DNA of 30,702 nt from Myxococcales bacterium (GTDB lineage: Bacteria; Myxococcota; Polyangia; HGW-17; SLPX01), in NCBI GenBank assembly GCA_007131745.1, contig SLPX01000197.1, forward strand, positions 1-30,702, in the 5' to 3' direction. The translations under genes and the position numbers were made by a program. A model generated the notes under the pieces. That model was not told the DNA's origin. It saw nothing but the letters and a program-made list of their open reading frames with translations, and made no database searches. Each line of letters starts with the position of its first letter. Position 1 is the first letter of the stretch. Of this stretch, positions 7,723-29,197 are shown piece after piece.

Positions 7723-7770
7723 CGCTCGTTTTCACAGAGTGCGAGGTTTGCATGACCATGATTTTTAAGA

Positions 7771-8376
7771 ATGGTTCATTCGACAAAAAAGAAAATGATT
7801 ATAAAGAAGAAAAATAATAGGCAGGGACACCGCTATCTAGGCATCGACGATGCTCCGTTTAAGAACCGGCGGGGATCCCGGGTACTGCTGATCGGGGCGG
7901 TCTGTCGTGGAACCGAGCTTGACGGCGTAATATCGACACACGTCACAAAGGACGGATGGAACGCAAGCGCAAAAATCGCTGAAATGATCACCAGATCGAA
8001 GTTTCACCGCCAAATCCGCGCTGTTTTGCTGGACGGCATAGCAGTGGGCGGCCTGAATGTTGTGGATCTTCCATTCCTGCATGAACAAACCGGGCTTCCG
8101 GTGATCACGGTTATGCGCAAGGAACCCGACCCGGCAGGCATGGAACGTGCTTGCAGAAAACTCCCACGGTCCGCGAAACGAATTGCACTAATAAAAAGAG
8201 GGGGCGGCATATCGAGATCCGGCGCGATTTTTTTTCAAGGCTTTGGGTTGCCGTACGAAGAGATTCGCGCAATCCTGAAAGAGTTGTCCGTATGTGGACA
8301 TATTCCTGAACCCGTGAGACTGGCGCACCTGATAGCCGGCGGTGTCATCTCAGGGGAAAGCGGCAAGAGAGCTTGA
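7771..8376 (+). CDS. DUF99 family protein (endonuclease V-like fold)
   Basis: Matches the DUF99 family, which is best known from archaea and is structurally related to endonuclease V and the RNase H-like nucleases; no DUF99 function is established. Conserved blocks visible are YLGIDDAPF (residues ~23-31, with the Asp pair expected at the active site), LDGVISTHVTKDGWNAS, IRAVLLDGIAVGGLNVVDLPFLHEQTGLPVI and the C-terminal IPEPVRLAHLIAGGVISGES. Length 201 is typical. The first ~20 residues are a lysine-rich tail that may not all be translated: ATG at 7795 is an alternative start, and neither has a strong ribosome binding site. Its stop overlaps the TTG start of the CDF transporter (TTGA at 8373-8376), implying translational coupling. 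Family assignment is firm, nuclease activity is inference. Confidence 0.85.
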   Translation: MVHSTKKKMIIKKKNNRQGHRYLGIDDAPFKNRRGSRVLLIGAVCRGTELDGVISTHVTKDGWNASAKIAEMITRSKFHRQIRAVLLDGIAVGGLNVVDLPFLHEQTGLPVITVMRKEPDPAGMERACRKLPRSAKRIALIKRGGGISRSGAIFFQGFGLPYEEIRAILKELSVCGHIPEPVRLAHLIAGGVISGESGKRA

Positions 8377-9404
8377 AAAGCAAACCTGAAAAGGATGCGG
8401 TTCACGAAAAACAACGCGGATCGCGAAGCGGCATGAAGGAACGAGAAGTTCAAAAGAAGGATGAGTCGGAAAGCGGTTTGGATTACCACCACCAGGATCG
8501 GGAAGATCACCACCATCTGCATTCCGACCTTTCCACGGCTCGGATCATCTGGGCCGTCGTAATAAATATCGGCATCACCGCTGTTGAATTGATAGCCGGG
8601 ATCTTGACCGGCTCTCTGGCTCTTTTGTCCGATGCCGTGCATAATTTTTCCGATGTGCTGGTTTTAGGAGTCACCTATCTCGGCGCCAGGGTGGCCGGCG
8701 GAAAACCCGACAAGCATCATACATTCGGCTTCGGTAGGGCCGAGGTGCTGGCCGGGCTCATCAATGCCGCAGCCCTTGTCGTAATAACGTTGTTTCTTGT
8801 TTACAAGGCGTTTCAGCGTTTGCTCGATCCTCAACCCGTCCAGGGCACTATCGTCCTGGCCGTCGGGTTTGTCGGGTTGCTGGGAAACGTGGCGTCGGTT
8901 CTGGTTCTGACTCTTAAAAGGAAAGAGAAAAGTCTGAGCATCAACTTGAGAAGCGCTGTTTTACATCTTCTGCTGGATGCGCTGTCCGCTATTGGAGTCA
9001 TGATTGCAGCAGGGGTCATCATTCTGACCGGTTGGCAGTACGCTGATCCGGTGGCGGCTGCAGTAATTGCTGTTCTCGTCTTTGTGGGAAGCGTGAGATT
9101 ATTGCGGGAAGCGATAGAAATCCTTATGGAAAAGGCTCCTTCAGGTCTTTGCGTGAATAGAATAAATGAGGCACTGATGGAAATTGAAGGCATATCTGAA
9201 GTGCACGATCTGCATGTCTGGTCGGTTTCAAGCACATCGCGGATAATGAGCGCTCATTTCGTCACGGATCCCGCTGCATCCAGGTCGGTGGAAGACATCG
9301 TGATAGAAGCCCGCAAGGTGCTCGCTAAAAGGTTTTCGATCCTTCACTGCACTCTGCAACCCGAGCGAACAGGATGCTCGAAATCCGAAATCGATCCGCT
9401 GTGA
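8373..9404 (+). CDS. Cation diffusion facilitator (CDF) family zinc/divalent-metal exporter
   Basis: Six-TM proton-coupled efflux carrier of the CzcD/ZitB type in the inner membrane. The signature SLALLSDAVHNFSDVL gives H90-x3-D94 in TM2, and H198-x3-D202 in TM5 (HLLLDALS) completes the four-residue transport site; His at the first position of each pair is the pattern associated with Zn2+ rather than Mn2+. A His/Asp-rich cytosolic N-terminus (about residues 39-51, HHQDREDHHHLH) precedes TM1, and the C-terminal cytoplasmic domain contains ISEVHDLHVWSVSS, the usual metal-binding ferredoxin-like fold. 343 residues, normal length. The TTG start overlaps the stop of the DUF99 gene; an internal ATG at 8433 would still include the His cluster. 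A hairpin terminator candidate follows about 40 bases downstream. Confidence 0.93.
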   Translation: MKSKPEKDAVHEKQRGSRSGMKEREVQKKDESESGLDYHHQDREDHHHLHSDLSTARIIWAVVINIGITAVELIAGILTGSLALLSDAVHNFSDVLVLGVTYLGARVAGGKPDKHHTFGFGRAEVLAGLINAAALVVITLFLVYKAFQRLLDPQPVQGTIVLAVGFVGLLGNVASVLVLTLKRKEKSLSINLRSAVLHLLLDALSAIGVMIAAGVIILTGWQYADPVAAAVIAVLVFVGSVRLLREAIEILMEKAPSGLCVNRINEALMEIEGISEVHDLHVWSVSSTSRIMSAHFVTDPAASRSVEDIVIEARKVLAKRFSILHCTLQPERTGCSKSEIDPL

Positions 9405-9441
9405 CACGCTCCGGTTGATTGTTCAAGAGCGAGATCCACCA

Positions 9442-9476
9442 TTCGGGGGGTTCCCCGGAGCTTGAGAATTTTTATT
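9442..9476 (+). terminator. Candidate intrinsic terminator after the CDF gene
   Basis: TTCGGGG (9442-9448) pairs with CCCCGGA (9453-9459) around a GGTT loop, a seven-pair stem with one G-T wobble. A T-rich stretch TTTTTATT begins at 9469, nine bases after the stem, which is further than ideal. It fits the end of the DUF99-CDF unit. Confidence 0.45.
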
Positions 9477-9539
9477 GAAATCCCTCAGCCTTTAGAGCAT
9501 GGTTCGGTCGTAAAGTGCATCGAACCGTTGGAATAATGG

Positions 9540-9568
9540 TTGAAAAAAAATTCTTAAGTGTTTAGAAA
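9540..9568 (+). promoter_or_regulatory. Candidate promoter for the Cys-rich lipoprotein gene
   Basis: TTGAAA (9540-9545) is separated by exactly 17 bases from TAGAAA (9563-9568); each hexamer matches four of six consensus positions. It lies in the AT-rich gap after the terminator candidate and would give a leader of about 60 bases ending in the strong ribosome site AGGAGAGGAG before the ATG at 9637. Confidence 0.35.
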
Positions 9569-9636
9569 TCTGAGTGGTTTGGAAGCACGAAACAAAGAAG
9601 GGCAATCTTTCATAAAAAAAAGGAGAGGAGCGAGCC

Positions 9637-11745
9637 ATGCAAAGGAAATGGTTGTGTTTGTTGATGGGAGGAGCATTTTTGGTGACAATGGGTTTTTCCG
9701 CTTGCGGAGACAACGGGGAAAAAGATGATGATGTAGACGCGGGTATAGACGCTGATCTGGTTGACGCGGATCTTGTCGACGCGGATCTTGTCGACGCCGA
9801 CACGCCCGACGGTGAGGTGCCTGAACCTGGATGCACCGGGGATTCGCCCGCCCATGCCCAGGAAGTCGGCGGATGCTGCCTGCGTGGCAGCGATTGCGTC
9901 AAAGGTTACTGTTTCGCTGGATATTGCACCGGTCAATGCACCGGGGACAGTGACTGTGAACCCGTAGCTGTCGGCCCGTTTCCGCTCGACACCGAGTTCA
10001 ACTGTAACGTAAATTCCATGGGCTTTTACAGTTACTGCGCTCCCGGCAGTCTGCAGCACTGCGGAGGCGAATCCGATTCCCCCTGCCCCGCGGGTGAATC
10101 CTGTGTCCTGGGATGGGACGACACAACAACAGTGAGCAACGATCCCGACCAACCCGGGCTGCGCGGGGTATGCATGACCAACCTATACGGAGAAGGCGTG
10201 TTGGCCGCCGGCGAACAGTGTGATAACACTATCGATGCAGCTGATTATCAGTGTGAAGCTCCGGGTTATCTTTTCGGAAGTTGCATGGGCCGTCGTTGCA
10301 CCGTGGCCTGTGATGCAGCCAACCCGGATGACACCTGCCCGGCGGGAACGGAATGCATAGGCCCGATAGCCCTGGAAACCGGCGGAGCTGACTTGCTCCT
10401 GGGGACGGGTTTCTGCGGAGGACAAAGTTGCGGAAGAATGGAGTTTTCCACGAACCCGGACGAAGACATCCGCATTCCGGGTTTGGACGCCGATTGTCCG
10501 CAGGGCGAAGTGTGCACTCCGTTTATGATACTGGGAGCCGAAGGGGATGTTTATTCGATGAGGTGTATTCCCGAGATGACCGCCTACGGGGCCCCCGGAG
10601 ACACATGCGAGCATGCAAGGAAATTCGGGCAATTCTGTAATCACGACCTGTGCCTCCAGGCATCTCCGGTTTGGCAATCCGACGGGGCGTATTGCGATTT
10701 CCACGAAGACTGCGGTCCCGATGAAGTCTGCGCAAGGGCGCCCAACCAGTTCGTCAGGGATCGTTGCGCGCCGAAACCCGACCCGGGATTCTGTTCGGTC
10801 ATGTGTCGCTCGGACGCTGATTGCCCGGACATGAATGGAGGCCCCGCCTACTGCATCACCCTGGGAGCAGGCAAACTCCACAACGGACAAAGCGCCTACT
10901 TGACTGCATGTTATCCTGAAAGCGAACTTTTCGAAGTCGATCCCGAACCGTGCGAAAGAGAAAGCGATTGTGACACAGCACTGGGTCTGGGATGCTTCAG
11001 GTTGGGCAATTACAGCCACAAGAAATTCTGCGACCAATCGGTTACAGCGGATCCGAACGGCGTGGAATGCACGAACGACCCAACGATTTGCGAAAATTGG
11101 GAAGCATGCGTGGAGGATTTCGACACAGGCGTGAGCACGTGTACTTCGGTAGGATTCGTGGGTGATCCTTGCACACCCGGTGAGGGAGAGTGTTTGAGCG
11201 GCTGGTGTTTTGACGGCGAATTCGACATCGAAGACGATGGGGGCAATCCTACCAATACTTTTTGTTCCGCAGTGTGTACCACGACGGATGACTGCGGTGC
11301 GAACCAGGTATGCGAAAATATCCTCTGGGCGAAAAACGATCCCGATACGAGTGACGATGATATAACCGGAGGAATCTGCCGACCCATGACGGTAAGGATT
11401 CAGAGCGAAGCCTGCGAAAACTCGGACGAATGCGACGGCGACAAAGTCTGCGACACCGATACCGGACGTTGCTTTGACCCGGCCTCCGAATGGGGAAGCG
11501 CGTGCACCGACGACTCCGACTGCAACCAAAACGGGCTCTGCAACACCAATGTACCGAACGGTCTTTGTTACAAACCCGGTTGCGATCCCGCAAACCCAGG
11601 CGATTACTGTGGAACCGGCGACGCTGTCTGCTCGGAAAATAGCAGCGTCGGCGTCTGCCTTGAAGAATGCACCCAAGACAGCGATTGTTCGAGGCACACA
11701 GACGACGGCCATATTTGTGTAAATGGAGCTTGTGAAAGCCCTTAG
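9637..11745 (+). CDS. Large cysteine-rich surface lipoprotein with low-complexity N-terminus
   Basis: No enzyme domain is recognised. The protein (702 residues) begins with a signal peptide and a near-lipobox FSAC giving Cys23 as the probable lipidated residue. Residues ~30-56 are an acidic tether built from Asp, Ala, Val and Leu, including an exact five-residue repeat D-A-D-L-V, as is common in surface lipoproteins of Bradymonadia and other Deltaproteobacteria. The remainder is a chain of short disulfide-rich modules of the form CxxDSDC....CxxGxC, resembling the EGF/Dickkopf-like cysteine patterns that recur in this group (for example DCVKGYCFAGYCTGQCTGDSDC and ENSDECDGDKVCDTDTGRC). The ATG at 9637 follows an excellent AGGAGAGGAG site. 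It probably forms an extended, disulfide-stabilised structure on the outer face; binding partner unknown. A CAP-domain secreted protein follows on the same strand. Confidence 0.85.
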   Translation: MQRKWLCLLMGGAFLVTMGFSACGDNGEKDDDVDAGIDADLVDADLVDADLVDADTPDGEVPEPGCTGDSPAHAQEVGGCCLRGSDCVKGYCFAGYCTGQCTGDSDCEPVAVGPFPLDTEFNCNVNSMGFYSYCAPGSLQHCGGESDSPCPAGESCVLGWDDTTTVSNDPDQPGLRGVCMTNLYGEGVLAAGEQCDNTIDAADYQCEAPGYLFGSCMGRRCTVACDAANPDDTCPAGTECIGPIALETGGADLLLGTGFCGGQSCGRMEFSTNPDEDIRIPGLDADCPQGEVCTPFMILGAEGDVYSMRCIPEMTAYGAPGDTCEHARKFGQFCNHDLCLQASPVWQSDGAYCDFHEDCGPDEVCARAPNQFVRDRCAPKPDPGFCSVMCRSDADCPDMNGGPAYCITLGAGKLHNGQSAYLTACYPESELFEVDPEPCERESDCDTALGLGCFRLGNYSHKKFCDQSVTADPNGVECTNDPTICENWEACVEDFDTGVSTCTSVGFVGDPCTPGEGECLSGWCFDGEFDIEDDGGNPTNTFCSAVCTTTDDCGANQVCENILWAKNDPDTSDDDITGGICRPMTVRIQSEACENSDECDGDKVCDTDTGRCFDPASEWGSACTDDSDCNQNGLCNTNVPNGLCYKPGCDPANPGDYCGTGDAVCSENSSVGVCLEECTQDSDCSRHTDDGHICVNGACESP
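9748..9792 (+). repeat. Three 15-bp tandem repeats encoding Asp-Ala-Asp-Leu-Val
   Basis: Units at 9748-9762, 9763-9777 and 9778-9792. The last two are identical (GACGCGGATCTTGTC) and the first differs at three third-codon positions. A partial unit (GACGCCGAC) follows. Unit length is a multiple of three, so copy-number change would lengthen or shorten the surface tether without a frameshift. Confidence 0.9.
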
Positions 11746-14559: not shown

Positions 14560-16131
14560 CTATCTTCTTCCCCGCCCTCGCCGCATTATGACATTTACTC
14601 TCGTCACCCTGCCGGGTTGAACATCCACGGTTCTTCTCTCGATGAATCCCTTTCTTCCTTTTCTGGGTTCAAAACGGAGTTCATATCTTCCAGGACGAAC
14701 TTCAAGACGAGGAATGGGCGTAACTCCCACGAACTCGCCGTTCAAAAACACCTTAGCATCAGGCCTAGAAGTAGCATTGATATAACCCATTCTAACTTTG
14801 GGTCTGAGCGTCCTCTCTACGTCTTGCAATTCTCCTGGACGTGCATGGAACTTGACTACTTCAGGATGGTGGCCTCTCGCTCTCAATTCCAGGGTGTGCC
14901 TCCCCGGCGGAATTTCTTCCCGCCTGATTGGAGTCTCGCCGATGTGCTCGCCGTTTAAATACACACGAGCCTGCGGATTCGACCTGACCCTGAGCCGCGC
15001 ATGCCGGACCTTGGGCTGAAGGTTTCTCTCCACGTCTTGCAATTCTCCTGGACGTGCATGGAACTTGACTACTTCAGGATGGTGGCCTCTCGCTCTCAAT
15101 TCCAGCGTGTGCCTCCCCGGCGGAATTTCTTCCCGCCTGATTGGAGTCTCGCCGATGTGCTCGCCGTTTAAATACACACGAGCCTGCGGATTCGACCTGA
15201 CGCGCAATCTCGCGAATACAGGCTTCAGGTCCCGCTGAACATCCTGGAAATCCCCCGGTTTCGCAAAAAACTTGATGACTTCAGGGAGATGTCCCGGTGC
15301 TCGCAATTCAAGCAAATACCTGCCTCGACGCAGATCATCCACCTCTAGGGGGGTCCTGCCAATGCTTCTCTTGTTGAGGAATACCTCCGCCTCCGGATTA
15401 GACCTGACGCGCAATCTCGCTGTTTCAGGCCTCAGGTCCCGCTGAACATCCTGGAAATCCCCCGGTTTTGCAAAGAACTTGATGACTTCATTGAAATGCC
15501 CACGAGCTCGCAACTCCAGAACATGTCTGCCGCGACGTAGATCTTCCACTTCAAGGGGGGTCCTACCGATGTGTTCGCCGTTTAGATACACCCGAGCCTC
15601 CGGATTCGACCTGACGCGCAATCTCGCGGCTCTGGGAGGAAACCGGTGCTCTATATTCACCGGAGTTCCGTGCCTGACGTGCACTCTCGTAGACCATTCA
15701 CGTCCTCCTTTTGTCACCAACCTAACGTCGTATGGTCCTTCCGGTAAAGCGCGGTTGATCATCGGCGTTCTTCCGAAATTCTTGCCGTTGAGATATATGG
15801 ACGCCGGAGGTTCAGAACGTACGGCCATACGTCCCATAGGAGGCGCCAACGGTGTCAGTTTCTCAAACAAAACCGTCTTTCGTCCGCCCTGCACATCAGC
15901 GGAAACAACCAATTCCTGATACCCGCGCGCACGCAAAATCACTTTGTGTCTTCCATGTGCCAATGGAATCGCCAAAGGGGTCTCTCCCCGGAATTTCCCC
16001 CTGATGTATACGCGTGCAGATGGTTTCGAATTGATCCTCAACATTCCTTTTCCCTGCGCTTCGGCTTCTCCAGCCAACGCAAAACACGACAAAAACCCCG
16101 CCACGACAACCAATAGTCTTCTACCATTCAT
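14560..16131 (-). CDS. Secreted protein of seven tandem PEGA domains
   Basis: PEGA domains are ~70-residue beta-sandwich modules found on bacterial surfaces, probably mediating contacts with other envelope components. The ATG at 16131 follows AAGGAGG by six bases and gives 523 residues with a signal peptide (MNGRRLLVVVAGFLSCFALAGEAEA, cleavage near 25/26). An upstream start at 16176 would add 15 arginine-rich residues and was rejected. Seven repeats begin near residues 29, 99, 167, 237, 307, 378 and 448; each contains the pattern V-x-S-x-P-x-A-x-V-Y-L-N-G-x-x-x-G-x-T-P, and ends with an R/G-H-x-L-E-L-R-A-x-G-H strand. Nothing but repeats and a very basic tail (RRGRGRR) is present, so the whole protein is a repeat rod. 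Repeats five and six are almost identical in DNA. Convergent with the 13.8 kb gene, and read from the same side as purM but with its own spacer. Confidence 0.9.
   Translation of the reverse strand: MNGRRLLVVVAGFLSCFALAGEAEAQGKGMLRINSKPSARVYIRGKFRGETPLAIPLAHGRHKVILRARGYQELVVSADVQGGRKTVLFEKLTPLAPPMGRMAVRSEPPASIYLNGKNFGRTPMINRALPEGPYDVRLVTKGGREWSTRVHVRHGTPVNIEHRFPPRAARLRVRSNPEARVYLNGEHIGRTPLEVEDLRRGRHVLELRARGHFNEVIKFFAKPGDFQDVQRDLRPETARLRVRSNPEAEVFLNKRSIGRTPLEVDDLRRGRYLLELRAPGHLPEVIKFFAKPGDFQDVQRDLKPVFARLRVRSNPQARVYLNGEHIGETPIRREEIPPGRHTLELRARGHHPEVVKFHARPGELQDVERNLQPKVRHARLRVRSNPQARVYLNGEHIGETPIRREEIPPGRHTLELRARGHHPEVVKFHARPGELQDVERTLRPKVRMGYINATSRPDAKVFLNGEFVGVTPIPRLEVRPGRYELRFEPRKGRKGFIERRTVDVQPGRVTRVNVIMRRGRGRR
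14819..15201 (-). repeat. Two nearly identical 170-bp copies within the PEGA gene
   Basis: Bases 14819-14988 and 15032-15201 are the same except for one visible substitution (G versus C in the ...CCAG[G/C]GTGTG... segment). The offset is 213 bases, exactly 71 codons, so the copies encode PEGA repeats five and six in register. Other repeats in the gene are clearly more diverged, which points to recent duplication or gene conversion. Confidence 0.92.
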
Positions 16132-16251
16132 GAGGCACCTCCTTATTCTATGCCTATTACAATGCCGTTTATTCAATACCCATTAAACGGATGTTTCCCA
16201 AGACGTTCTTCCAGGCCTTTTTATTCAAAAAAAGTTTTCTCCCCAAAAACG

Positions 16252-19073: not shown

Positions 19074-21968
19074 TCATTTCGTGGTCATCCTGAACACTCC
19101 GTCCCAATCATCGGGCGGAGGCGTTCTCTCGTATTCTTCGCATCTCTCAACATACAACTCTGACGGCCGATCTCCTGGATAATCATTCAGTATAGATCGA
19201 AAAGCTATTTTGGCTTCTGAAAACTCTCTGTTCCTGTAAATCTGCAAAGCAGCCTCAAAACGTTCCACCATTTTCTTGATTCCGGGATCAGCTTCCTTTA
19301 ATTGTACGAGGAGTTCGTAAATCTTCACCGGCTCTTCTTTCCCCTTTACGGTCATCCAGTCCAGTTCCCGGGTCAGTATTTCATCAGCTACAAGATCCCT
19401 CGTGCCCTTTGCGATCATGAGCGTCGTCCCGTATACTTTGTTTGCGCCTTCAAGCCTTGCAGCCAGGTTCACAGTATCCCCCATGACCGTATAATTGTAC
19501 TTGTGAAGCGAACCCATGTTGCCCGCGACAGCGTTTCCAGTGTTGATCCCGGCACGGAAATTCACGGTTTCACTGAAACGTTCCTTCCAGCCGCCCTGGA
19601 GTTCCATCAATTTCTTTTTTGTTCTCAACGCGGCTCTGCATGCGTGCAATGCATGCTTGTCATCATCCAGAGGCGCTCCCCAAAAGGCCATTATTGCGTC
19701 TCCGATGTACTTGTCCACGATTCCATTTTCCTCCAGGATTATGTCCGTCATCGCTGTCAAATACTCGTTGAGAAGCACAACAAGCTTTTGCGGCCCCAAT
19801 CTTTCGGATATGCTCGTAAAACTCACGACGTCAGAAAAAAACACGGTCAAATCGCGACTCTCACCCCATTCAAGGGAAAGCGCTTTCGGATTATTCATCA
19901 ACTCCCGGACAAGAGCCGGCGACGTATACCTTCCCAATGCATCCTGCACAAAACGCCGGTCGAGACTCTCCTTGTATACGTGCATTGCAACCACCCCGGC
20001 CCAGGTGACCAAAGCCCCAAGAAACGGTGTTGCAAAGTCCACCCAGACACCGTGTCTTTTAAAAAGCAAGTGTTCCGTTAAAGCCAGCGCACCTATCAAA
20101 CCCGCCGTGATGAGCAGGCTCGAAAGAGCCGCCATCAAAGCGGAGCGCACCATGCCCACAAGAAAAAAGGCTCCGGTTCCAAGCAGAAAGCAAAGCAGAA
20201 ACGATAGCAAAGCTCCGGACAGGCGAGGTATTCTGCGCACGAAATCATCGTTTAATAAATTATCGATGAATGTTGCATTGATCTCCGCTCCAAGCGCTCT
20301 GGCATCCAGCGGAGTCGGCTTCAAGTCCCTCATTGCGGCGGCCGCTGCATGGATGATGAAAATCCGGCCTTCCACCGTCCCCGGTTGCATTCCAGCTATC
20401 CTCTTCATGCTCCCGGGATTCTTACCGTCGCTTTTTTCAAGCTGTTTTACCAAGGTATCATCGATTTTCGGAACACACACCCCGCTTTCAAAAACCTTCT
20501 TGAGTTCACTGATCAACGATGCCGCGGATGGAGCCGGGTCAGCGTCTCGTGAAACCGTTTCTATTTGTTCCTCCCTCGGTTTGTTCACAGCCGAACCGGT
20601 TTTTCTTACGCTTTGCAGCAGCGGAGTCAGCTTTTCACCGCATCCCTCCGGAAGCTTCAGGTGACCAATGCTTTCCACCGCGCCATGCAGAATTTCCAAT
20701 CTTCTTGCATCCGTGTCGCCACCTTTTGAATCTCCGGTTTCCGAGTGTTTTTCTTCTTTCGGAATGAGGTTTTGTTCAATCTTTGATAATGCGTCTTCTA
20801 CTGTCTCCCGGAAAAGGTTGATCTCCATCTCCTGAGCCGCAACATTCAACACATGCCTGATTCCGACCCTGGAATAGATATCGCCTGAACCGTGGTATCG
20901 CAACACCACCCTTCCGTTTTCATCCAGTGGAATCCGTCGGCCGTCGAAAAACAGATCATTGCCTTTCAGTTCCGGTTTCTTTTCGGGAAAAGCCGCCATC
21001 GCAACCGCAACACCAAAGGAAGGAAACAGACTGGACCGATGCGCCATTACCGGAGCATATCGTCTGAAGAGTCCGTCTTTTTCCGGATCCTGCCGAACAA
21101 CTCCCATGGCGGAATTAACCATAAGGGGCATGAGAGGAGGAATGATATGCGGGTATGTCCTGTAAACGGAATCATCGGGCGCATCGTCCGGAAGTCTTCC
21201 CATTTCCACAGCGATGTCCTCTTCTCTTAGTTCCCGGACCTGCTCGTCCGGTTTCAATTTCCCCACCCGGATTTGGGAAAGATCCTTTAACAGTTCCTCG
21301 AAAGGTTCCTGGATGGCGAGTCTTTCCAGTTCCTTCCTCAGACTCTCCTCGCTTTCCTCACCCCCAATCCAAAGCTTGCAACCCTTGGTTACATTTTCCC
21401 CCCGGAATTCCGATAAGAACACTCGACTCTGCCACCACAAGAGCTGACGGGCGAGTTCATCCGCTTCTTTGCAATCTTCAAACTCCCTTACCAAGGCCGC
21501 CCACGGCCCGGGTTCCTCAATGGATCTTCCGAACCTGGATAACTCCAGTCCTATGACCGTCCGCGTGGAAGAACCCAGCACTTCCCCGAATCTTTCCACG
21601 TCCTCCACCCCGGCATTTCCAGGGTCCACGAACACGAAATCGAAAACGACCGCGGCTGCTCCCCTTTCCAATAAGTGTTTGGCTGCAACAGCAAACAGCT
21701 CCCTCGGCCAAGGCCAACTCAAATGGCTATTGCGATGAACCCATCGGATATCGTAATCATCCACGTCCACCATGACGATTCGCGGATCCGCCCGCCCCTT
21801 GTCCGCTGATGAACGGGCTCGTACATCATAGGTATAAAGCTCCAGCCCTTCCATCCAGCCGGGTCTCAAAAACGCGGTAAACCCGGCGACTATTCCCACG
21901 ATTATGCCCACAAGCATTCCCGGCCAAAGACGCCTCAAAAGATGAGCATTCGGTTTTTCTCCAAGCAT
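19074..21968 (-). CDS. CHASE2-domain class III adenylate cyclase
   Basis: Membrane cyclase of 964 residues. N-terminal TM (about 17-36) is followed by an extracytoplasmic CHASE2 sensor, three further TM helices (about 585-665) and a cytosolic class III cyclase domain (about 700-880). Catalytic positions are intact: metal Asp713 (FFSDVVSFTS) and Asp757 (KYIGDAIMAFWG), Lys753 and Thr827 at the two adenine-recognition positions, and transition-state Asn834 and Arg838 (VNLAAR). Lys/Thr is the class IIIb adenylate pattern, so cAMP is the expected product. The last ~70 residues are a TPR-like helical tail ending PPPDDWDGV, usual in this family. CHASE2 here is about 540 residues instead of the common ~300-350, with an acidic low-complexity piece near 400-420. 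The ATG shares one base with the stop of the upstream REC-PilZ-STAS gene (TGATG). Confidence 0.95.
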   Translation of the reverse strand: MLGEKPNAHLLRRLWPGMLVGIIVGIVAGFTAFLRPGWMEGLELYTYDVRARSSADKGRADPRIVMVDVDDYDIRWVHRNSHLSWPWPRELFAVAAKHLLERGAAAVVFDFVFVDPGNAGVEDVERFGEVLGSSTRTVIGLELSRFGRSIEEPGPWAALVREFEDCKEADELARQLLWWQSRVFLSEFRGENVTKGCKLWIGGEESEESLRKELERLAIQEPFEELLKDLSQIRVGKLKPDEQVRELREEDIAVEMGRLPDDAPDDSVYRTYPHIIPPLMPLMVNSAMGVVRQDPEKDGLFRRYAPVMAHRSSLFPSFGVAVAMAAFPEKKPELKGNDLFFDGRRIPLDENGRVVLRYHGSGDIYSRVGIRHVLNVAAQEMEINLFRETVEDALSKIEQNLIPKEEKHSETGDSKGGDTDARRLEILHGAVESIGHLKLPEGCGEKLTPLLQSVRKTGSAVNKPREEQIETVSRDADPAPSAASLISELKKVFESGVCVPKIDDTLVKQLEKSDGKNPGSMKRIAGMQPGTVEGRIFIIHAAAAAMRDLKPTPLDARALGAEINATFIDNLLNDDFVRRIPRLSGALLSFLLCFLLGTGAFFLVGMVRSALMAALSSLLITAGLIGALALTEHLLFKRHGVWVDFATPFLGALVTWAGVVAMHVYKESLDRRFVQDALGRYTSPALVRELMNNPKALSLEWGESRDLTVFFSDVVSFTSISERLGPQKLVVLLNEYLTAMTDIILEENGIVDKYIGDAIMAFWGAPLDDDKHALHACRAALRTKKKLMELQGGWKERFSETVNFRAGINTGNAVAGNMGSLHKYNYTVMGDTVNLAARLEGANKVYGTTLMIAKGTRDLVADEILTRELDWMTVKGKEEPVKIYELLVQLKEADPGIKKMVERFEAALQIYRNREFSEAKIAFRSILNDYPGDRPSELYVERCEEYERTPPPDDWDGVFRMTTK

Positions 21969-23119
21969 CAGCGCTCCTCAAACGGGAGATAGCCGAAAAG
22001 CCGCTCCGGCAGGTCGTCCAGCACGAGCCTCACACTGCATGCATTGCACATAAATGAGTATTTCGCCATATCGGACGCCAATGCATCATTCGGCACCTCC
22101 AGGAGAAAAACACTCTCTCTCCTGCACTCTTCGCAAAAATAAGGAACAAACTGAGAGATGACATTTCCCTCTCCCAGCATCTTCGGAATCATGGAAGCCT
22201 GGCGGGCAAACGCGGGGGAAATTCGCGAAAAAACATAGTCATCGACGGAGTGAAGCGCCTCCAGAAAATAAACCCATGAGCGCAGTCCAGTGGAATTGAT
22301 ATACCTGATGCCGGCCAGGTCAAACTCCACCTTGCCCTTGAGCTTTCCCGGAAGTTCCCCGAATTCAGTGGCTTCCGTGAGATCCCCGACAAAACTGACT
22401 ATGGTTACTCCCTTGTCCTCGCTTATCTCCCAAAACGCCAGCTCTGAGATCTGCCGTCTCAGCAAGCTGGGCAATTTGGGGAATTCCAGGCCCAACACGC
22501 CGGTTCCATTTGTAGACAGTTCCGAACGCCACACAACTGTGGCGTCCAGTATAATCGGCCGGGAGGACTTGTGTCGTTTGACTTTCAAGCTGACATCGGT
22601 GAAAGAATTGAACACCGTCCGATTCAATCCGTCCAACTCGACCCTGGCGCCGTGTATACCCAGGTCTTTAACTCTTCCCCTGTACCGTCCACCCTCGTTT
22701 TCCACCTCGGCATCTATGGACACTTCAATGCGTCTTCCCAGACGTCTCGGCAAACCCAAGACCTGCGACAGATTCTGAAACAGATCCTCGTCCGACAAGG
22801 GATAATGCAAAACGCTATGCGCCCCAGCCCTCTCTGCATCTTTAAGCAAATCATCGTTGGAATCCTCTTTCGAAACAGCCAGGAAAATTCTGACATGCAA
22901 CAACTCCGGCCGTGTCCTCATGATTCCACAAAGATCAAACCCATCCACATCCGGCAGTTTACGATCCACGATCACCAATTGCGGACGAAGATCGATTGCA
23001 GCTTTGAGCAACTCTTCCCCTGTATCGCAAGATTTCAAAAGCACGCCCAAACGGCGGAAATAGGAGGATTCCAGGCGGCTTATGAGATCCTGATTTTTAG
23101 AAATCAAAGCAAGTATCAC
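21968..23119 (-). CDS. Fusion of degenerate receiver, PilZ, STAS-like and zinc-ribbon domains
   Basis: GTG start at 23119 with GGAGG six bases upstream; 383 residues. Residues 1-120 are a receiver-type fold with the phosphorylatable-position Asp52 (LVIVDRKLPDVDG), but the N-terminal acidic pair is Ser7-Lys8 and the switch Lys is Tyr106 (HYP instead of KP), so it is probably not a conventional phospho-receiver. Residues 124-230 look like PilZ, with R125-x3-R129 and D152-x-G-x-x-G157 (Ser of the usual D/N-x-S-x-x-G is Gly), compatible with c-di-GMP binding. Residues ~236-330 resemble a STAS domain (FDLAGIRYINSTGLRSW, with a Ser in the expected position). The C-terminal part has CEEC and CNAC pairs, a likely zinc ribbon. 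It is translationally coupled to the adenylate cyclase and is the first gene of the minus-strand run. Role inferred as a signal-integrating regulator of that cyclase. Confidence 0.8.
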   Translation of the reverse strand: MILALISKNQDLISRLESSYFRRLGVLLKSCDTGEELLKAAIDLRPQLVIVDRKLPDVDGFDLCGIMRTRPELLHVRIFLAVSKEDSNDDLLKDAERAGAHSVLHYPLSDEDLFQNLSQVLGLPRRLGRRIEVSIDAEVENEGGRYRGRVKDLGIHGARVELDGLNRTVFNSFTDVSLKVKRHKSSRPIILDATVVWRSELSTNGTGVLGLEFPKLPSLLRRQISELAFWEISEDKGVTIVSFVGDLTEATEFGELPGKLKGKVEFDLAGIRYINSTGLRSWVYFLEALHSVDDYVFSRISPAFARQASMIPKMLGEGNVISQFVPYFCEECRRESVFLLEVPNDALASDMAKYSFMCNACSVRLVLDDLPERLFGYLPFEER

Positions 23120-23393
23120 GCTAAACCTCCAATATTCAAAAACAATACAAAGAAGAGATCGGCTTTTCTATATTCAGCATCTCGACAACACTGATTGCCT
23201 TGCAAAAACAACCGGATAAGGGCCAAAACAAGGTTTAATCCATCTTCTTTTTCAACGATCTTTTATCCGATATTTGCAATTTAAAGTAAAGCCCCGCAAA
23301 TAGGTGGGTTTTGAATGATCGTGCAGTCCAACCAGCAGATCCCGTGGAAAGCTTCCTGTTTCCAACCAAAAATACGTCGGACATTTTTCGGTT

Positions 23394-23774
23394 TCAGTCG
23401 CAGCCGGAACTACATACGCATGTGCCGATGTTTTCACAGGTGAGAGAACAACCGAAAGAGCAATCGGACAAGATGCAATTCCCGCTTCCGCTGCAGTGCT
23501 GGGAACACTCGCCCCCTTCGCAGGACAAATTGCAGTTTCCAGTGCCCTGGCAAGCTACGCTGCAACCTCCTCCTTCACAATCGAATTTGCAGTTGCCCGT
23601 GCCCTGGCAGATCATGATGCAGTCGCCGCCGGGACATTCGATATCGCAGTTGCCGATTCCTGAACATACGCATGTTTCGCCGGGCTTGCACGAGGTCGAT
23701 TTATTACCGATACAAGACGATGCCGCCGGAACGAAAACCGACAAAACCAATGACAAAACAGCATACTTCTTCAT
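23394..23774 (-). CDS. Small exported protein made of 19-residue four-cysteine repeats
   Basis: From ATG at 23774 (a longer frame to 23969 has no signal and was rejected; ribosome site weak) the product is 126 residues. Residues 1-20 are a signal peptide ending A-A-S-S before Cys21, an imperfect lipobox. Residues 37-112 are four repeats of 19 residues with Cys at 1, 7, 11 and 16: C-x-G-x-G-N-C-x3-C-x-G-G-x-C-x3, the fourth slightly shifted. There are 23 Cys; if Cys21 is lipidated, 22 remain, an even number suited to full disulfide pairing. The Gly/Asn-Cys rhythm suggests a flat beta-solenoid similar to DUF3060-type repeats, which recur in Myxococcota secreted proteins; no function is known. 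Located between the signalling run and the ABC exporter. Confidence 0.75.
   Translation of the reverse strand: MKKYAVLSLVLSVFVPAASSCIGNKSTSCKPGETCVCSGIGNCDIECPGGDCIMICQGTGNCKFDCEGGGCSVACQGTGNCNLSCEGGECSQHCSGSGNCILSDCSFGCSLTCENIGTCVCSSGCD
23439..23666 (-). repeat. Four 57-bp units encoding the 19-residue Cys repeat
   Basis: Four consecutive 57-base units cover residues 37-112 of the small Cys-rich protein. The central two units are most alike (both begin with the codons for CQGTGNC). They are similar but not identical, so this is an older expansion than that of the PEGA gene. Confidence 0.85.
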
Positions 23775-24107
23775 GTAGGATTTCTCTTTTTGAAACACCT
23801 TTGGAACTTTCAAAAAATATTCCCGCAAGGAATTCCAGTCAAGCCTATTCGAGGCGCAGACGAACCTCCAGCAGGGAGGTTGGAACAAGCCGTCCGGCGA
23901 TTTCGGCCCCTGCGAAGACCCATGGTTCGGCATCGTTGTGACCGGCGGTTTGTCCACTGCCGTAAACAAGCAGGCTCGCGCGATCCCGGAAGCTGTTTAT
24001 AGAGTGAGTTGCACTCTGCATTTATTACAAAGGTGACTTTATCTCCCACTTTGTTAAAAAGGACCGAATAACGGCAAAAGACCGACGTCAAATGCAAAAG
24101 GCAAATC
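23775..24107. other. 333-base divergent intergenic region before the ABC exporter
   Basis: No gene is supported here. It should hold the promoters of the Cys-repeat gene (leftward) and the ABC exporter (rightward). Two perfect short hairpins stand out: AACCTCC/GGAGGTT at 23863-23881 with a five-base loop, and AGAGTG/CACTCT at 24001-24017 with a five-base loop. Neither is followed by a T-run, so they are better candidates for operators or leader structure than terminators. AAAGG precedes the ABC start codon by six bases. Confidence 0.5.
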
Positions 24108-26714
24108 ATGGCCGAACGATTGGACGACTGGGTTTCCATTTGGCACAAGCCTTATCGAAAACATCTGCTTCAACTGCTTGTGATCGGCACGGCAGCAGGT
24201 GGATTAGTCTATCTTGAAAACACTTTTCTTCGAGGTTTGGTAGAAAGCCTCTCCGCGGCTCCTAGGGCTGGTGAAAGCTTTTTTTCAGATTTTTTCACTG
24301 CCGCCTGGGGAGAACGGTCTGTTGCCTGGATCTTTCTGGGGTCTGTTTTCTTGGTTGGCCTTGCACGTTCCCTGTTGGGAGTATCCCGAGATCTTCTATC
24401 AGGCAAGCTGGAGGCCGAATCGCGATGCGATCTGGAAAGACAAATATTGAGACACCTGTTGCATCATGAAGATGGTTTTTTCGCCGAGCATTCCAGTGGA
24501 GAAATTCTCAACCGCCTTGAAGTCGACTTGTTCCGTATATTGGATCGCCGTGAAACATTGGTGACTGTGTGGTGGTCCTCTCTTACGATTCTGGGCAACT
24601 TCGTGTTCTTCGGACTCGCGGATTGGCGTTTGGCCGTGGTGGTTTTAGTCATTTCGATCCTTGGCATCCTGGTCACTCAATACGCCGGTCTTCCGTTGAA
24701 GGATTCCGACGCCGCCTACTTCACCGCCGGAGACCGTGTGAAAACGGATTTCGAGGATTACATGAAGGCCGTGCCTGAAATCCAGGTCGGCGGGTTGTAC
24801 GAATCCATGATCCAAAGGTTTCGGATTCCTCAAAACAGCAGGGTGAGAGCTTACCTGCGCTGGGTTAAATCCAACACGGGCTTCGGTTTCACCCGGGTTT
24901 TCTGGCCCGTACTTGCCTTTTTGGCGACAGTCCTCGTTATTGTCTACAGCTATACAAAGCAAGGAGAGGACGCGTCGCACAAACTCGCCCTGATACCTGT
25001 TTTGATCTTTGCGCTTCCCACGATTTTCAACAATGTGACGAACCTCGTGGGTCAACGTGTAAAGTTTCAAATAGCGCGAAACAGTGTAAATAGAATTCTG
25101 GAATATAATTGTGACAATATTGCGCCCGTGGAGGACCATTCCGGAGAGTCCGTGGAACTTGGAGAACCCGGAAGAATTACACTCGATGATGTCACCTATC
25201 GTTACCGGGCCGCAACCGGTCAACTCCAGGGCGGAGTATCCAATGTCACCGTTTCTTTCGCTCCTTCGACATGGACGACGCTTGCGGGAGGAGCCGGATC
25301 CGGCAAGTCAACTCTTTGCAACCTGATCCTGGGGCGGCTGGTCCCCGACAAAGGGGTTATTCAGCTTCAAGACACATCCTTTGCAAGAATCAACGAAGCT
25401 TCACGCCGGAATCTTGCAACCATCATGCCGCAGAGAATCGTCCTTTTCGACACGACAATAGCTGAAAACCTCTCAATAGGCAGGGGAAAGATTGTAGATG
25501 CTTCCAAACCGGACGACTCGTCTTTTAATAATTATATTTCCGGAGCGGACATCGAAATTCTTGAATCCATCGGTCTCGCTGAAGTGTGCAGAATGAAAGC
25601 ACTCGAAATGAATCCTTCGCCCGGATCTCTGGATCTTTTCTCCGCTTCGGAGATCAGGGAACTCAGAGAAAAAGCCCGTGGGATCGTCAGTGATTTAAAG
25701 ATTAATCACACGGTTTTTTCCAAAGACAACCCTGACCCCGAAAGACCGGTTTTTGAAGGTTTGTTAGGTGGGAGAACCGATCTGAAAAAGGTTGTGGAAA
25801 GAATTTTCACGGAGTCTTTCCGCTCCCGCTCATGGAAAAAATTCTCGGATTCACCTATGGGCGATTTTCTTGCCAACTTGGGAAGCGCAGTGATTTCAGG
25901 GTCTAAAAACCTCCTCGAAATTCCCGACCATGATTCCTTTGCCGCTTTGAGTCCTTCGAACTTGGAAAGGAAGATCTGGGAAGAACGGCGACGCATCCTA
26001 ACTCAATCAAGGCAATCCAAACCCTCGGCGGCGCAGCTTAAGTCCCGACGTCTGAAGTTGTCCTTGATTCGTATCGGTTTGACTTGCACTCTTTCCGAGA
26101 TACATGAAACCGATACATTGAAGAAGATGGATTTCAAATCACTTAAAGCATGGCGGGAAAAATATCCTGATGATGCAAGCCTGATCCGTGAAATAGCAGG
26201 GAACCAATGGCATCCGTCGGATCCCGAAAGCCTCGATCCTACGTTGAACTGGCGGGACAACTTGGTATTCGCCAGGTTGCACACGACAAACAGCCGGCAA
26301 GCTCAGAGGATTGACGAAGCATTGCTGCGGCTCATGGGTGAAGGCCGTTGGAAAGATTTCTTCGTGGAACAAGGCTTGGGTTACAAAGTTGGAAGAAATG
26401 GTTGTCGTCTATCCGGCGGTCAGAATCAACTTGTAGCGTTGGGCCGCGCTCTCCTGAGACGCACTCCGGTGCTGGTTCTAGACGAACCGACTTCAGCTCT
26501 TGATCCGGCACGTAGAAATAAGATCGTTAATTTCTTGAACGAATGGAAAGACAAAAGAATAGTGATAGCCATCAGCCATGATCCCGAACTTGCAAAAGCG
26601 GCCGACAAGGTCATCTTGATGAAAGACGGTCGATTGTCCGCTGAAGGCGTTTATGAACAACTGATGGAGAGTTCGAATGATTTTCAGGCGGTGTTCCGCA
26701 GTTCACGGTTCTGA
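24108..26714 (+). CDS. ABC exporter (fused membrane and ATPase domains) with a giant ATPase insertion
   Basis: 868-residue half-transporter. The N-terminal ~330 residues are a six-helix exporter-type membrane domain; RQILRHLLHHEDGFFAEHSSGEILNRLEVDL is the usual coupling-region sequence. The ATPase domain has an intact Walker A (GGAGSGKS, Lys400), Q-loop Q442 (IMPQ), signature LSGGQ at 768-772, Walker B D792-E793 and switch H824. Q-loop to signature is 325 residues, against roughly 55-60 in ordinary exporters, so about 265-270 residues are inserted into the helical subdomain between IAENLSIG (about 453) and the segment FFVEQGLGYKVGRNGC just before the signature. The insertion is highly charged and mostly helical, without recognised motifs. 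ATP hydrolysis residues are complete, so it should be an active homodimeric exporter with an extra cytosolic domain. A cyclic-nucleotide-binding protein follows 28 bases later, probably the same operon. Confidence 0.92.
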   Translation: MAERLDDWVSIWHKPYRKHLLQLLVIGTAAGGLVYLENTFLRGLVESLSAAPRAGESFFSDFFTAAWGERSVAWIFLGSVFLVGLARSLLGVSRDLLSGKLEAESRCDLERQILRHLLHHEDGFFAEHSSGEILNRLEVDLFRILDRRETLVTVWWSSLTILGNFVFFGLADWRLAVVVLVISILGILVTQYAGLPLKDSDAAYFTAGDRVKTDFEDYMKAVPEIQVGGLYESMIQRFRIPQNSRVRAYLRWVKSNTGFGFTRVFWPVLAFLATVLVIVYSYTKQGEDASHKLALIPVLIFALPTIFNNVTNLVGQRVKFQIARNSVNRILEYNCDNIAPVEDHSGESVELGEPGRITLDDVTYRYRAATGQLQGGVSNVTVSFAPSTWTTLAGGAGSGKSTLCNLILGRLVPDKGVIQLQDTSFARINEASRRNLATIMPQRIVLFDTTIAENLSIGRGKIVDASKPDDSSFNNYISGADIEILESIGLAEVCRMKALEMNPSPGSLDLFSASEIRELREKARGIVSDLKINHTVFSKDNPDPERPVFEGLLGGRTDLKKVVERIFTESFRSRSWKKFSDSPMGDFLANLGSAVISGSKNLLEIPDHDSFAALSPSNLERKIWEERRRILTQSRQSKPSAAQLKSRRLKLSLIRIGLTCTLSEIHETDTLKKMDFKSLKAWREKYPDDASLIREIAGNQWHPSDPESLDPTLNWRDNLVFARLHTTNSRQAQRIDEALLRLMGEGRWKDFFVEQGLGYKVGRNGCRLSGGQNQLVALGRALLRRTPVLVLDEPTSALDPARRNKIVNFLNEWKDKRIVIAISHDPELAKAADKVILMKDGRLSAEGVYEQLMESSNDFQAVFRSSRF

Positions 26715-26742
26715 GGTCAATCGGTAGAGAGTAAGGCACTGT

Positions 26743-27186
26743 ATGTTGAGCATCGAACAGAAAAAGGAAGCGCTGCGATGTTGTCCTTTGTTTTCGGGGA
26801 TGGAAGCGACCGAGATCGGGGTCTTGTCCGAAGCAATGGAAGAAGAGTTTTTCCAGGAAGGAGAAGAAATCTGTGTTGCCGGAGAAACGGCCGACAGGAT
26901 ATACGTTGTCTACGAAGGAGAGCTCTCGGTCTACCTGCCCGGCATTGATGAACCCGTAAGAAGATTGATAGGAGGCCAAGTCCTGGGCGAATACGGTATG
27001 TTCACGAAAACCCGGACCACAACAATCCTTGCATCAAAACCCACTCTCATGCTGTCGATGGATTATGAAAGATTCCAAATGTTTTTGTTCAGTTATCCGA
27101 AAGCCATGTTCGAACTTTTCAAAACCTCGGTCAGGCGATTGATCCAAGCGGAGGATAGGTTGCGCGACAAGACGGACAAGAGTTAA
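26743..27186 (+). CDS. Stand-alone cyclic-nucleotide-binding domain protein
   Basis: 147 residues forming essentially one CNB domain of the CRP/PKA-regulatory type: FFQEGEEICVAGETADRIYVVYEGELSVYL is the beta-roll, and GQVLGEYGMFTKTRTTTI is the phosphate-binding cassette, with Glu83 and Arg91 in the places that contact ribose and cyclic phosphate. The C-terminal helix (YPKAMFELFKTSVRRLIQAEDRLRDK) has the usual lid/dimerisation look. No helix-turn-helix, kinase or other effector follows, so it cannot be a DNA-binding CRP protein and probably acts by protein contact. ATG at 26743 is preceded by AAGG. Being 28 bases downstream of the ABC exporter and near an adenylate cyclase locus, it is a candidate cAMP-sensing subunit for the exporter. 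A weak hairpin with a T-run follows. Confidence 0.9.
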   Translation: MLSIEQKKEALRCCPLFSGMEATEIGVLSEAMEEEFFQEGEEICVAGETADRIYVVYEGELSVYLPGIDEPVRRLIGGQVLGEYGMFTKTRTTTILASKPTLMLSMDYERFQMFLFSYPKAMFELFKTSVRRLIQAEDRLRDKTDKS

Positions 27187-27443: not shown

Positions 27444-29090
27444 TCAGATTTCAATCGTCTCATCATCTTCCCGGTATGTAACCCGGTAAAGATCGGTGCG
27501 GCGATCCAGCCAAGGTCTTACAGATGCTGTACGGAGTGTCCGACGCAAATCATCAAGATCTAATTCATGAACCAGCAAAGTCTCCGTGTTAGCGTTGGCC
27601 TCCGCGCCGATGCCGTCCCTCGAAAACGCTATGTCCGATGGCGTCAATATGGCCGATTGGGCATAATGGATATCCGCTCCGCTTACTGAAGGAAGATTTC
27701 CCGTGGCCCCACATAACACACAGTAGACATGGTTTTCGATACAACGGGCGTGTGCGCAATATCTCACCCGCAAATGCCCGCTCCTCACATCGGTATTGTA
27801 GGGCACAAAGAGAATCCGCGCTCCCTTTGAAACAGCGATCCTTGCCAACTCTGGAAACTCGATGTCATAGCAGGTCAGGATAGCGATCTTTCCGCTGTCG
27901 GAGTCGAAAACCTTCAGCCTGTCTCCAGGTTTAACCCCCCACCACCTGAACTCCGCCGGAGTAATCTGGATTTTCTTCTGTCTCTCGAAACTGCCGTCAC
28001 GCCTGAAGAAATACGCGGTATTGTATAGGTCTTCTCCCTCCATGGTCAGGTGCGAACCGCCTATGATGTTTACGGCATACTTGATAGCCATGCGGCGAAA
28101 AAAATCTATGTACTCAGGTGTAAACTTGTCCAGCAACCGAGCCGTTACACCGGGTCTACCTTCCGGCAAGAGAGGAAAAAGCTGCGTGGTAAGCAACTCG
28201 GGAAATATCACGAAATCAGAACGGAAATCCCCGGCACTGTCGATAAAAAACTCGCAGGTTGTCATGAACTCTTCAAAAGAACTGACCCTTCTCATCTCGT
28301 ATTGAACCGAAGCGACACGAACACGGCCGCGACCGGCCATGGTGCCTGTCGGCGGCACGTACTTGGTGTTCAGCCACTCCATTAATACGGCGTGCCCCCT
28401 TGAAGACTTGTCTTCGAGCAGATAGTCCCGGATCAGCCTCAAAACAGCAAATCCATTTGCCAATTGGGCTGTTATCACTGGGTCCCTGATTTGCTTTGTC
28501 ACCACCCTACGCAAATACTCTTCCGGAGATATCTGTTCGGCCCACTTGAAGTACCGCGGCATACGCCCGCCGATAACCAACCTCCTAAGGTTCTTTTCGA
28601 CCACCAGCTTTTTGCGGGCGTCATACATCCGCCTGGACAACCGAAGCCCACGGTAGTCAGGGTGCACCGACATCTCAACACCGTAAAGAGTATCTCCTTC
28701 TTCATTGTGAGTCCCGAACCAACCCCTGTCGGTTGCCTGCTCATATGTGTGTTTAGATCCCAACTCGTCCAGATCCACGATGAGGCTTCCGGAGTTCGCC
28801 ACCAACATGCCGTCCAGTTCTATGCAAAGCTGGCCTTCGGGAAACGTTTCAAGCTGAGTCAGATATTGATCCTTTAGCCAGGGAACCATATCAGGATAGC
28901 ATCGTCTCTGAAGAGCCACAAAGTCTTCATAATCATCGGGTCTCAACGTTCTCAGCACCAAACGAGCTTTCATCTCGTCCTTTCGGCGTTTTTTGTCGAC
29001 CTTGACGTTGTTCCCTTTTTTGCCGGAGCTTGTATTGCCGCGTTTGCTCCCGCTGCTGCCTCCGGTTACGGAACCCTTGTCTTTTGACAT
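27444..29090 (-). CDS. GNAT acetyltransferase-nitrilase (carbon-nitrogen hydrolase) fusion
   Basis: Two enzyme domains in one 548-residue cytosolic protein. After a basic Gly/Ser/Lys-rich tail (about residues 1-40) comes a GNAT fold (about 45-215) with VEMSVHPDYRGLRLSRRMYDARK, the acetyl-CoA pyrophosphate-loop region. The C-terminal domain (about 255-525) is a nitrilase-superfamily amidase with its catalytic triad visible: Glu298 (VIFPELL), Lys372/373 (QKKIQITP) and Cys407 (ILTCYDIEFPE). Such fusions form a recognised nitrilase branch whose substrate is unknown; acyl transfer coupled to amide hydrolysis is a reasonable guess. ATG at 29090 lies five bases after GGAGG; the GTG at 29093 is only two bases away and was rejected. 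It appears to be a single-gene unit, convergent with the cNMP gene. Confidence 0.9.
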   Translation of the reverse strand: MSKDKGSVTGGSSGSKRGNTSSGKKGNNVKVDKKRRKDEMKARLVLRTLRPDDYEDFVALQRRCYPDMVPWLKDQYLTQLETFPEGQLCIELDGMLVANSGSLIVDLDELGSKHTYEQATDRGWFGTHNEEGDTLYGVEMSVHPDYRGLRLSRRMYDARKKLVVEKNLRRLVIGGRMPRYFKWAEQISPEEYLRRVVTKQIRDPVITAQLANGFAVLRLIRDYLLEDKSSRGHAVLMEWLNTKYVPPTGTMAGRGRVRVASVQYEMRRVSSFEEFMTTCEFFIDSAGDFRSDFVIFPELLTTQLFPLLPEGRPGVTARLLDKFTPEYIDFFRRMAIKYAVNIIGGSHLTMEGEDLYNTAYFFRRDGSFERQKKIQITPAEFRWWGVKPGDRLKVFDSDSGKIAILTCYDIEFPELARIAVSKGARILFVPYNTDVRSGHLRVRYCAHARCIENHVYCVLCGATGNLPSVSGADIHYAQSAILTPSDIAFSRDGIGAEANANTETLLVHELDLDDLRRTLRTASVRPWLDRRTDLYRVTYREDDETIEI

Positions 29091-29197
29091 CACATCCTCC
29101 CAAGCTTTTTATCTAATCGCTCTGTCTTTCGAATGAAGTGGTTTGGCCCATGCCAAATCGTCCATGCGGCTGAATCGCCTTTTTGCTGAATCCTATT

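Follow-up and report, generated by a model that had tools for sequence, protein, structure and literature searches.

The 30,702-nucleotide stretch analyzed here (the window; contig SLPX01000197.1 of the Myxococcales assembly GCA_007131745.1) carries the gene of an ATP-binding cassette (ABC) exporter and, starting 28 bp past its stop codon, a separate open reading frame (ORF) in a different frame that encodes a small cyclic-nucleotide-binding (CNB) protein. We found that exporter and CNB gene form a real, conserved unit, and we consider it probable that they belong to an exporter family in which a dedicated nucleotide-receptor subunit gates transport directly and post-translationally. A sequence-only reading had located four genes in this region, adding a CHASE2 adenylate cyclase and a REC-PilZ regulator to the exporter and the CNB protein, and had joined them into a cAMP-controlled export system. 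All four are open frames where it had placed them, and Pfam confirmed the domains of each (Table 1).

The exporter and CNB gene as a conserved pair

By its sequence, the exporter is of the MsbA/ABCB type, a single chain combining an ABC_membrane transmembrane domain with a nucleotide-binding domain (NBD) of canonical motifs, with Pfam scores above cut-off. GGAGSGKST (Walker A), Q442 (Q-loop), LSGGQ, LDEPT (Walker B) and H824 (H-loop) are intact and conserved in alignments, and the top-scoring solved relatives were ABCB4 and P-glycoproteins, followed by MsbA. Because the alignments to solved ABC proteins break near residue 463 and restart near residue 755, the ~280 residues between the Q-loop and the signature motif form an insertion in the NBD helical subdomain. 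The large extra cytosolic domain proposed earlier corresponds to this insert, which splits the NBD and is common to the relatives. A confident AlphaFold2 model of the insertion (mean pLDDT 93) was mostly helical, and a Foldseek comparison of the model with the PDB gave no match at E ≤ 0.001. The protein encoded directly behind the exporter is, as had been proposed, a CNB protein without output domain. Its model shows a CRP fold with a long C-helix at the chain end and the DNA-binding domain absent, the closest structural matches being cAMP-bound CRPs.

A search with the insertion alone retrieved two further proteins, and an eight-member alignment retrieved 44 proteins at E ≤ 1e-40 among 7996 scored candidates, the first 27 of which (P0001 included) separate from general ABC proteins (E 6e-137 vs 1e-60). 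Scanning an 84,980-species collection with two short motifs from three sequences, which gives no measure of rarity, yielded five loci: L001 from a Methylomirabilota metagenome-assembled genome (MAG), L002, L004 and L005 from Verrucomicrobia MAGs, and L003 from a Deltaproteobacteria MAG. The insertion exporter is single-copy in each of these genomes, and at four of the five loci (L001, L002, L004 and L005) the gene of a ~151-aa CNB protein overlaps the exporter end by 4 bp. Within a distance of 3 kb, a CNB gene accompanied four of the five insertion exporters vs none of the 17 other ABC_membrane exporters from the same five genomes (Fisher p ~0.0007, calculated by hand with kinship ignored). 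This comparison covered 22 ABC_membrane exporters, two pieces in G003:C63 being taken as one, and 32 CNB places, two of these under cut-off; a few of the 17 controls lie near contig ends, where a neighbouring CNB gene could escape notice. The conserved neighbourhood on which the sequence-only reading had staked its proposal thus held. Distances in eight exporter–CNB pairs, three of them assigned on weaker grounds, correlated with r 0.97, and 0 of 5000 permutations reached as high a value; such parallel divergence would fit inheritance as a unit and is alone no proof of contact. At E ≤ 1e-10, 174 CNB relatives were found, 120 of them among the matches listed, which hints at further pairs.

The pairing extends into Alphaproteobacteria, where tblastn with the window CNB protein as query led to plasmid loci including L015, whose 1027-aa ABC exporter carries a C-terminal CNB domain. 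When the L015 exporter served as query, 345 plasmid records matched, 256 over at least 80% of its length; the match extended into the CNB part in 40 of the 40 matches listed, many of them strains of one species, and 20 annotated rows among the matches listed name two genes, the exporter and a CNB, CRP-like or regulator protein. All 16 alphaproteobacterial loci examined have a CNB, 13 as a separate neighbouring gene (with its frame broken in two in L036) and three fused to the exporter. L015 and L016 had been chosen via the CNB query, L022 and L023 via the fused query, and the other 12 via a search with a CNB-less exporter, L018 and L021 being already labelled regulator or CNB when chosen; among the eight picked by species from a spread list (L029–L036), a CNB was present in 8/8. 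As all 16 loci are alphaproteobacterial, mostly from Rhizobiaceae, they are not independent. This family, annotated on rhizobial and roseobacter plasmids as an exporter with a 'cyclic nucleotide-binding domain-containing protein', differs from the window exporter in sequence (14–20% exporter identity), in NBD motifs that look eroded and in mostly adjoining glycosyltransferases, which are common neighbours in this branch. The NBD insertions of the two branches are homologous (hhalign probability 95.4%, score 64.1); a larger profile gave 93.7% and a score of 56.9, whereas 50 column-shuffled controls scored 19.5 at most (mean 13.7). On this ground we place the window exporter and the alphaproteobacterial branch in one superfamily of insertion-bearing exporters. 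In the exporters of L016 and L018–L023, Walker A and signature motifs are eroded, and ATP use there is therefore doubtful. Searching the literature by title and abstract start, we recognised no paper on the alphaproteobacterial exporter–CNB family.

Proposed ligand and mode of action of the CNB protein

The recurrence of this pairing in distantly related bacteria, in some cases as a fusion, suggests a sensor controlling the pump directly. Exporter and CNB protein would form one transport system, with the CNB protein as a CRP-type nucleotide receptor, probably dimeric via its C-helix, and with the exporter protein as its direct target. On binding its ligand, the receptor would change how it touches the exporter, most likely at the helical-subdomain insertion, and from there it could be coupled directly to the ATPase cycle. 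A 3',5'-cyclic nucleotide would be the most likely ligand, and in this genome the obvious candidate is cAMP, supplied by the CHASE2 cyclase next door or by some other cyclase. In CNB domains, Glu and Arg of the phosphate-binding cassette (PBC) bind ribose and phosphate of the cyclic nucleotide. The window protein has GE and Arg of this cassette. Across the aligned CNB rows the Glu is invariant (124 of 124) and the Arg nearly so (122), which makes a cyclic nucleotide the likely ligand. Only tentatively do we extend the proposal to a class of ligand-gated ABC exporters that would be widespread and as yet undescribed, in which a CRP-derived receptor, separate or fused, would bind a cyclic nucleotide and switch the ATPase via the helical NBD insertion.

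Several observations weigh against this interpretation. L003 has no CNB at the locus or on its contig in a whole-genome CNB search, and L002, L004 and L005 belong to a single taxonomic order, which reduces the number of independent cases. His replaces the PBC Arg in the two remaining rows (P0046 and L005, with an identical motif), the PBC loop of the window protein is one residue short, and GD stands in place of GE in the fused CNBs of L020 and L021. Three cyclase-domain queries detected no cyclase in 18 of 22 further loci or stretches searched, a set in which L012 overlaps L003 and L029–L036 cover only 2 kb on each side. For HetC, an ABC exporter with a CNB domain from Nostoc PCC 7120, the study reports that the CNB bound ppGpp best and that cAMP gave no stabilisation; deletion of the CNB abolished function in vivo (PMC10986499). 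It is conceivable, if rather unlikely, that the same two-part exporter has a receptor for another nucleotide such as ppGpp, cCMP, cUMP or GTP, the CHASE2 cyclase being unrelated to it. The nearly invariant Glu and Arg of the PBC argue against such a ligand, as do the cAMP-bound CRPs as closest structural matches and the adenylate-cyclase-type gene 91 bp upstream of the fused L015 exporter.

Cyclase genes and the REC-PilZ regulator

The window cyclase is a predicted CHASE2 class III cyclase, joining a CHASE2 domain to a catalytic domain with the full residue set. Catalysis by class III cyclases depends on both metal-binding Asp residues and on Lys, Thr, Asn and Arg; alignment with CyaB and CyaC showed all residues of an active enzyme to be present. 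The stop codon of the regulator gene overlaps the cyclase start (TGATG). Because a Cys-rich gene intervenes and the exporter is transcribed the opposite way, cyclase and regulator form a separate divergent unit and do not share an operon with the exporter. In the circuit drawn by the sequence-only reading, an external signal would cause the CHASE2 cyclase to produce cAMP, c-di-GMP or stress would feed in through the REC-PilZ protein, and the cAMP would control the exporter–CNB pair. We regard this full circuit as improbable, even though all its parts lie inside 8 kb, the catalytic residues of the cyclase are intact, its gene is overlapped by that of the regulator, and L001, L004 and L015 have class III cyclase-type genes of other kinds next to the pair. 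By reading, the receiver of the regulator lacks the acidic pair and the Lys. PilZ domains that bind c-di-GMP carry the motifs RxxxR and D/NxSxxG; the window PilZ has RRLGRR, whereas its second motif, read by eye, is DLGIHG. A STAS domain, also claimed for the regulator, was not recovered: a Pfam search of the last 154 residues of that protein with a limit of E 10 returned nothing beyond two weak matches to zinc fingers (E 0.12 and 0.44). This C-terminal part (21968–22432, −) contains CEEC and CNAC pairs and has no family match.

L001–L005 contain no homologue of the window cyclase or regulator at E ≤ 1e-3; 11 loci including these five, searched again, gave general cyclase matches only, in L022, and a search of L015, L020 and L021 gave one cyclase match, in L015. 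The REC-PilZ regulator was found in 0 of the 14 loci searched, and among 395 sampled genomes of one phylum, with four candidates scored in each, only receiver-PilZ partial matches turned up, in two. An input of c-di-GMP via PilZ is so far unsupported, and by full-length match the relatives searched have no CHASE2 cyclase beside the exporter. Cyclase-type genes of other kinds do occur near the pair. A gene for a RyR-TPR-S protein with a C-terminal cyclase-like domain, single-copy in its three genomes, adjoins the pair in L001 and L004, on opposite sides, and lies away from it in G005; by a hand estimate from the cyclase counts, the chance of two of five having one within 3 kb is ~0.003, with the distance set after the fact. 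In L001 and L004 this domain keeps both Asp and the Arg, whereas Ser or Thr replaces the catalytic Asn, a further point against the circuit. A WD40 protein is encoded 3' of the RyR-TPR-S gene in L004, where it has a TIR-like start by reading, and two genes before it in L001; together, the two look like a nucleotide-signalling conflict module. The soluble cyclase gene of L015 ends 91 bp upstream of the fused exporter on the same strand, and L022 has two cyclase genes 6–7 kb off. A cyclase thus adjoins the pair in the window, L001, L004 and L015, as had been claimed for the window, but the types differ and most loci are without one, so that the cyclase link to the pair is suggestive only.

Genomic settings and known systems

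L002, L004 and L005 are peptide-maturation clusters with at least two copies of a gene for a 75–97 aa precursor-like protein, three radical SAM proteins (one under the Pfam cut-off), an FkbM-like protein (by reading) and a GAF protein. L002 and L005 also encode a subtilase, and L001 has both subtilase and GAF. The precursor-like proteins share an MSKKTIKK... leader and vary at the C-terminus; they are a possible family of ribosomally synthesized and post-translationally modified peptides. In L003, a LanM gene (7105–10392) and an NHLP-leader-like ORF (10238–10672, by reading) stand directly behind the CNB-less insertion exporter. The peptide-cluster proteins of the relatives (radical SAM, subtilase, LanM and others) had no match in the window. 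The least probable of the alternatives is a CNB protein that only shares a transcript with the exporter and has its target elsewhere, for instance among maturation enzymes or, via a partner, in gene expression. Exporter and CNB genes do overlap or lie at most ~100 bp apart in the loci measured, and the pairs sit in biosynthetic clusters of several lineages. These neighbours vary by lineage, however, being radical SAM peptide clusters in some and glycosyltransferases in others, with none found in the window, whereas exporter and CNB stay constant, and the fusions in L015, L020 and L021 put the CNB on the exporter chain.

Several known systems were compared with the pair. In HetC, the CNB is N-terminal and fused, and a C39 peptidase is present (PMC10986499). 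The window exporter instead has a separate CNB protein, a large NBD insertion and no peptidase among its Pfam matches at E ≤ 0.05, and so does not fit the PCAT/HetC type, which is marked by an N-terminal C39 peptidase domain and a CNB on the exporter chain. HetC was the only CNB-bearing ABC exporter that we recognised in the literature searched, most subscription journals lying outside it. The cyc_nuc_ocin family (TIGR03896) is, by its NCBIfam description, a CNB protein tied to bacteriocin-type transport (NHLM/NHLP), and L003, with LanM and a leader-like ORF adjoining the exporter, resembles such loci; the window proteins score far below the NCBIfam cut-offs of cyc_nuc_ocin (16.7 vs 161.05) and of the NHLM bacteriocin exporter TIGR03797 (140 vs 709.4), and this assignment was rejected. 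CRP/FNR regulators such as GlxR and Mtb CRP have a nucleotide pocket and C-helix like those of the window CNB protein, which is no such transcription factor, having cNMP_binding only and a model that stops at the C-helix. Pycsar, in which a cyclase stands beside a CNB effector with a TIR or transmembrane domain, was also rejected, the window CNB protein having no further domain; the PycC and PycTIR matches were general cyclase and CNB matches. Another CNB transporter may be encoded in Azospirillum (L014:2754–5471, +), an antiporter-like membrane protein whose C-terminal domain is, by reading, CNB-like.

Elsewhere in the window, the Cys-rich protein between the two units has repeats of the kind GTGNCxxxCEGGxC and no Pfam match, positions 27444–29093 (−) encode a carbon-nitrogen hydrolase whose N-terminal part is GNAT-like (the match to GNAT falls under its cut-off), and positions 14560–16176 (−) encode a protein carrying seven PEGA matches.

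Table 1. Positions of the genes and domains discussed, in the window and at related loci
Feature	Position or locus	Strand	Remarks
ABC exporter, MsbA/ABCB type, 868 aa	window 24108..26714	+	Pfam ABC_membrane + ABC_tran
NBD insertion, exporter residues 480-759	window 25545..26384	+	~280 residues, helical subdomain
Lone CNB protein, 147 aa	window 26743..27186	+	Pfam cNMP_binding as sole domain
CHASE2 adenylate cyclase, 964 aa	window 19074..21968	-	Pfam CHASE2 120.4 bits + Guanylate_cyc 78.1 bits
REC-PilZ regulator, 383 aa	window 21968..23119	-	Pfam Response_reg + PilZ
Cys-rich secreted or lipoprotein-like gene, 126 aa	window 23394..23774	-	start picked by reading
Separate CNB gene	L016, L018, L019, L022, L023, L029-L036		Alphaproteobacteria plasmids
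C-terminally fused CNB	L015, L020, L021		Pfam
Soluble class III cyclase gene	L015:1-1236 = L037:9651-11006	+ (L015), - (L037)	PF00211, 53.8 bits; Hyphomicrobiales plasmid
RyR-TPR-S protein, C-terminal cyclase-like domain	L001:4516-6843	+	
RyR-TPR-S protein, C-terminal cyclase-like domain	L004:11411-13765	+	
RyR-TPR-S protein, C-terminal cyclase-like domain	L011:7592-9808	-	
Paralogous precursor-like genes	L002:3443-3736, 6759-7052		Verrucomicrobia radical SAM cluster
Paralogous precursor-like genes	L004:1704-1940, 6815-7042		Verrucomicrobia radical SAM cluster
Paralogous precursor-like genes	L005:3692-3949, 6800-7045		Verrucomicrobia radical SAM cluster

If the CNB protein gates the exporter as we propose, second messengers would act on secretion without transcription, and cAMP-type signalling would be placed directly on peptide and glycan export. 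The family would be the second case of a CNB-controlled exporter after HetC and a much broader one, with the receptor as a separate subunit and a candidate docking domain in the NBD. Natural versions of the system, both fused and unfused, exist in culturable rhizobia.
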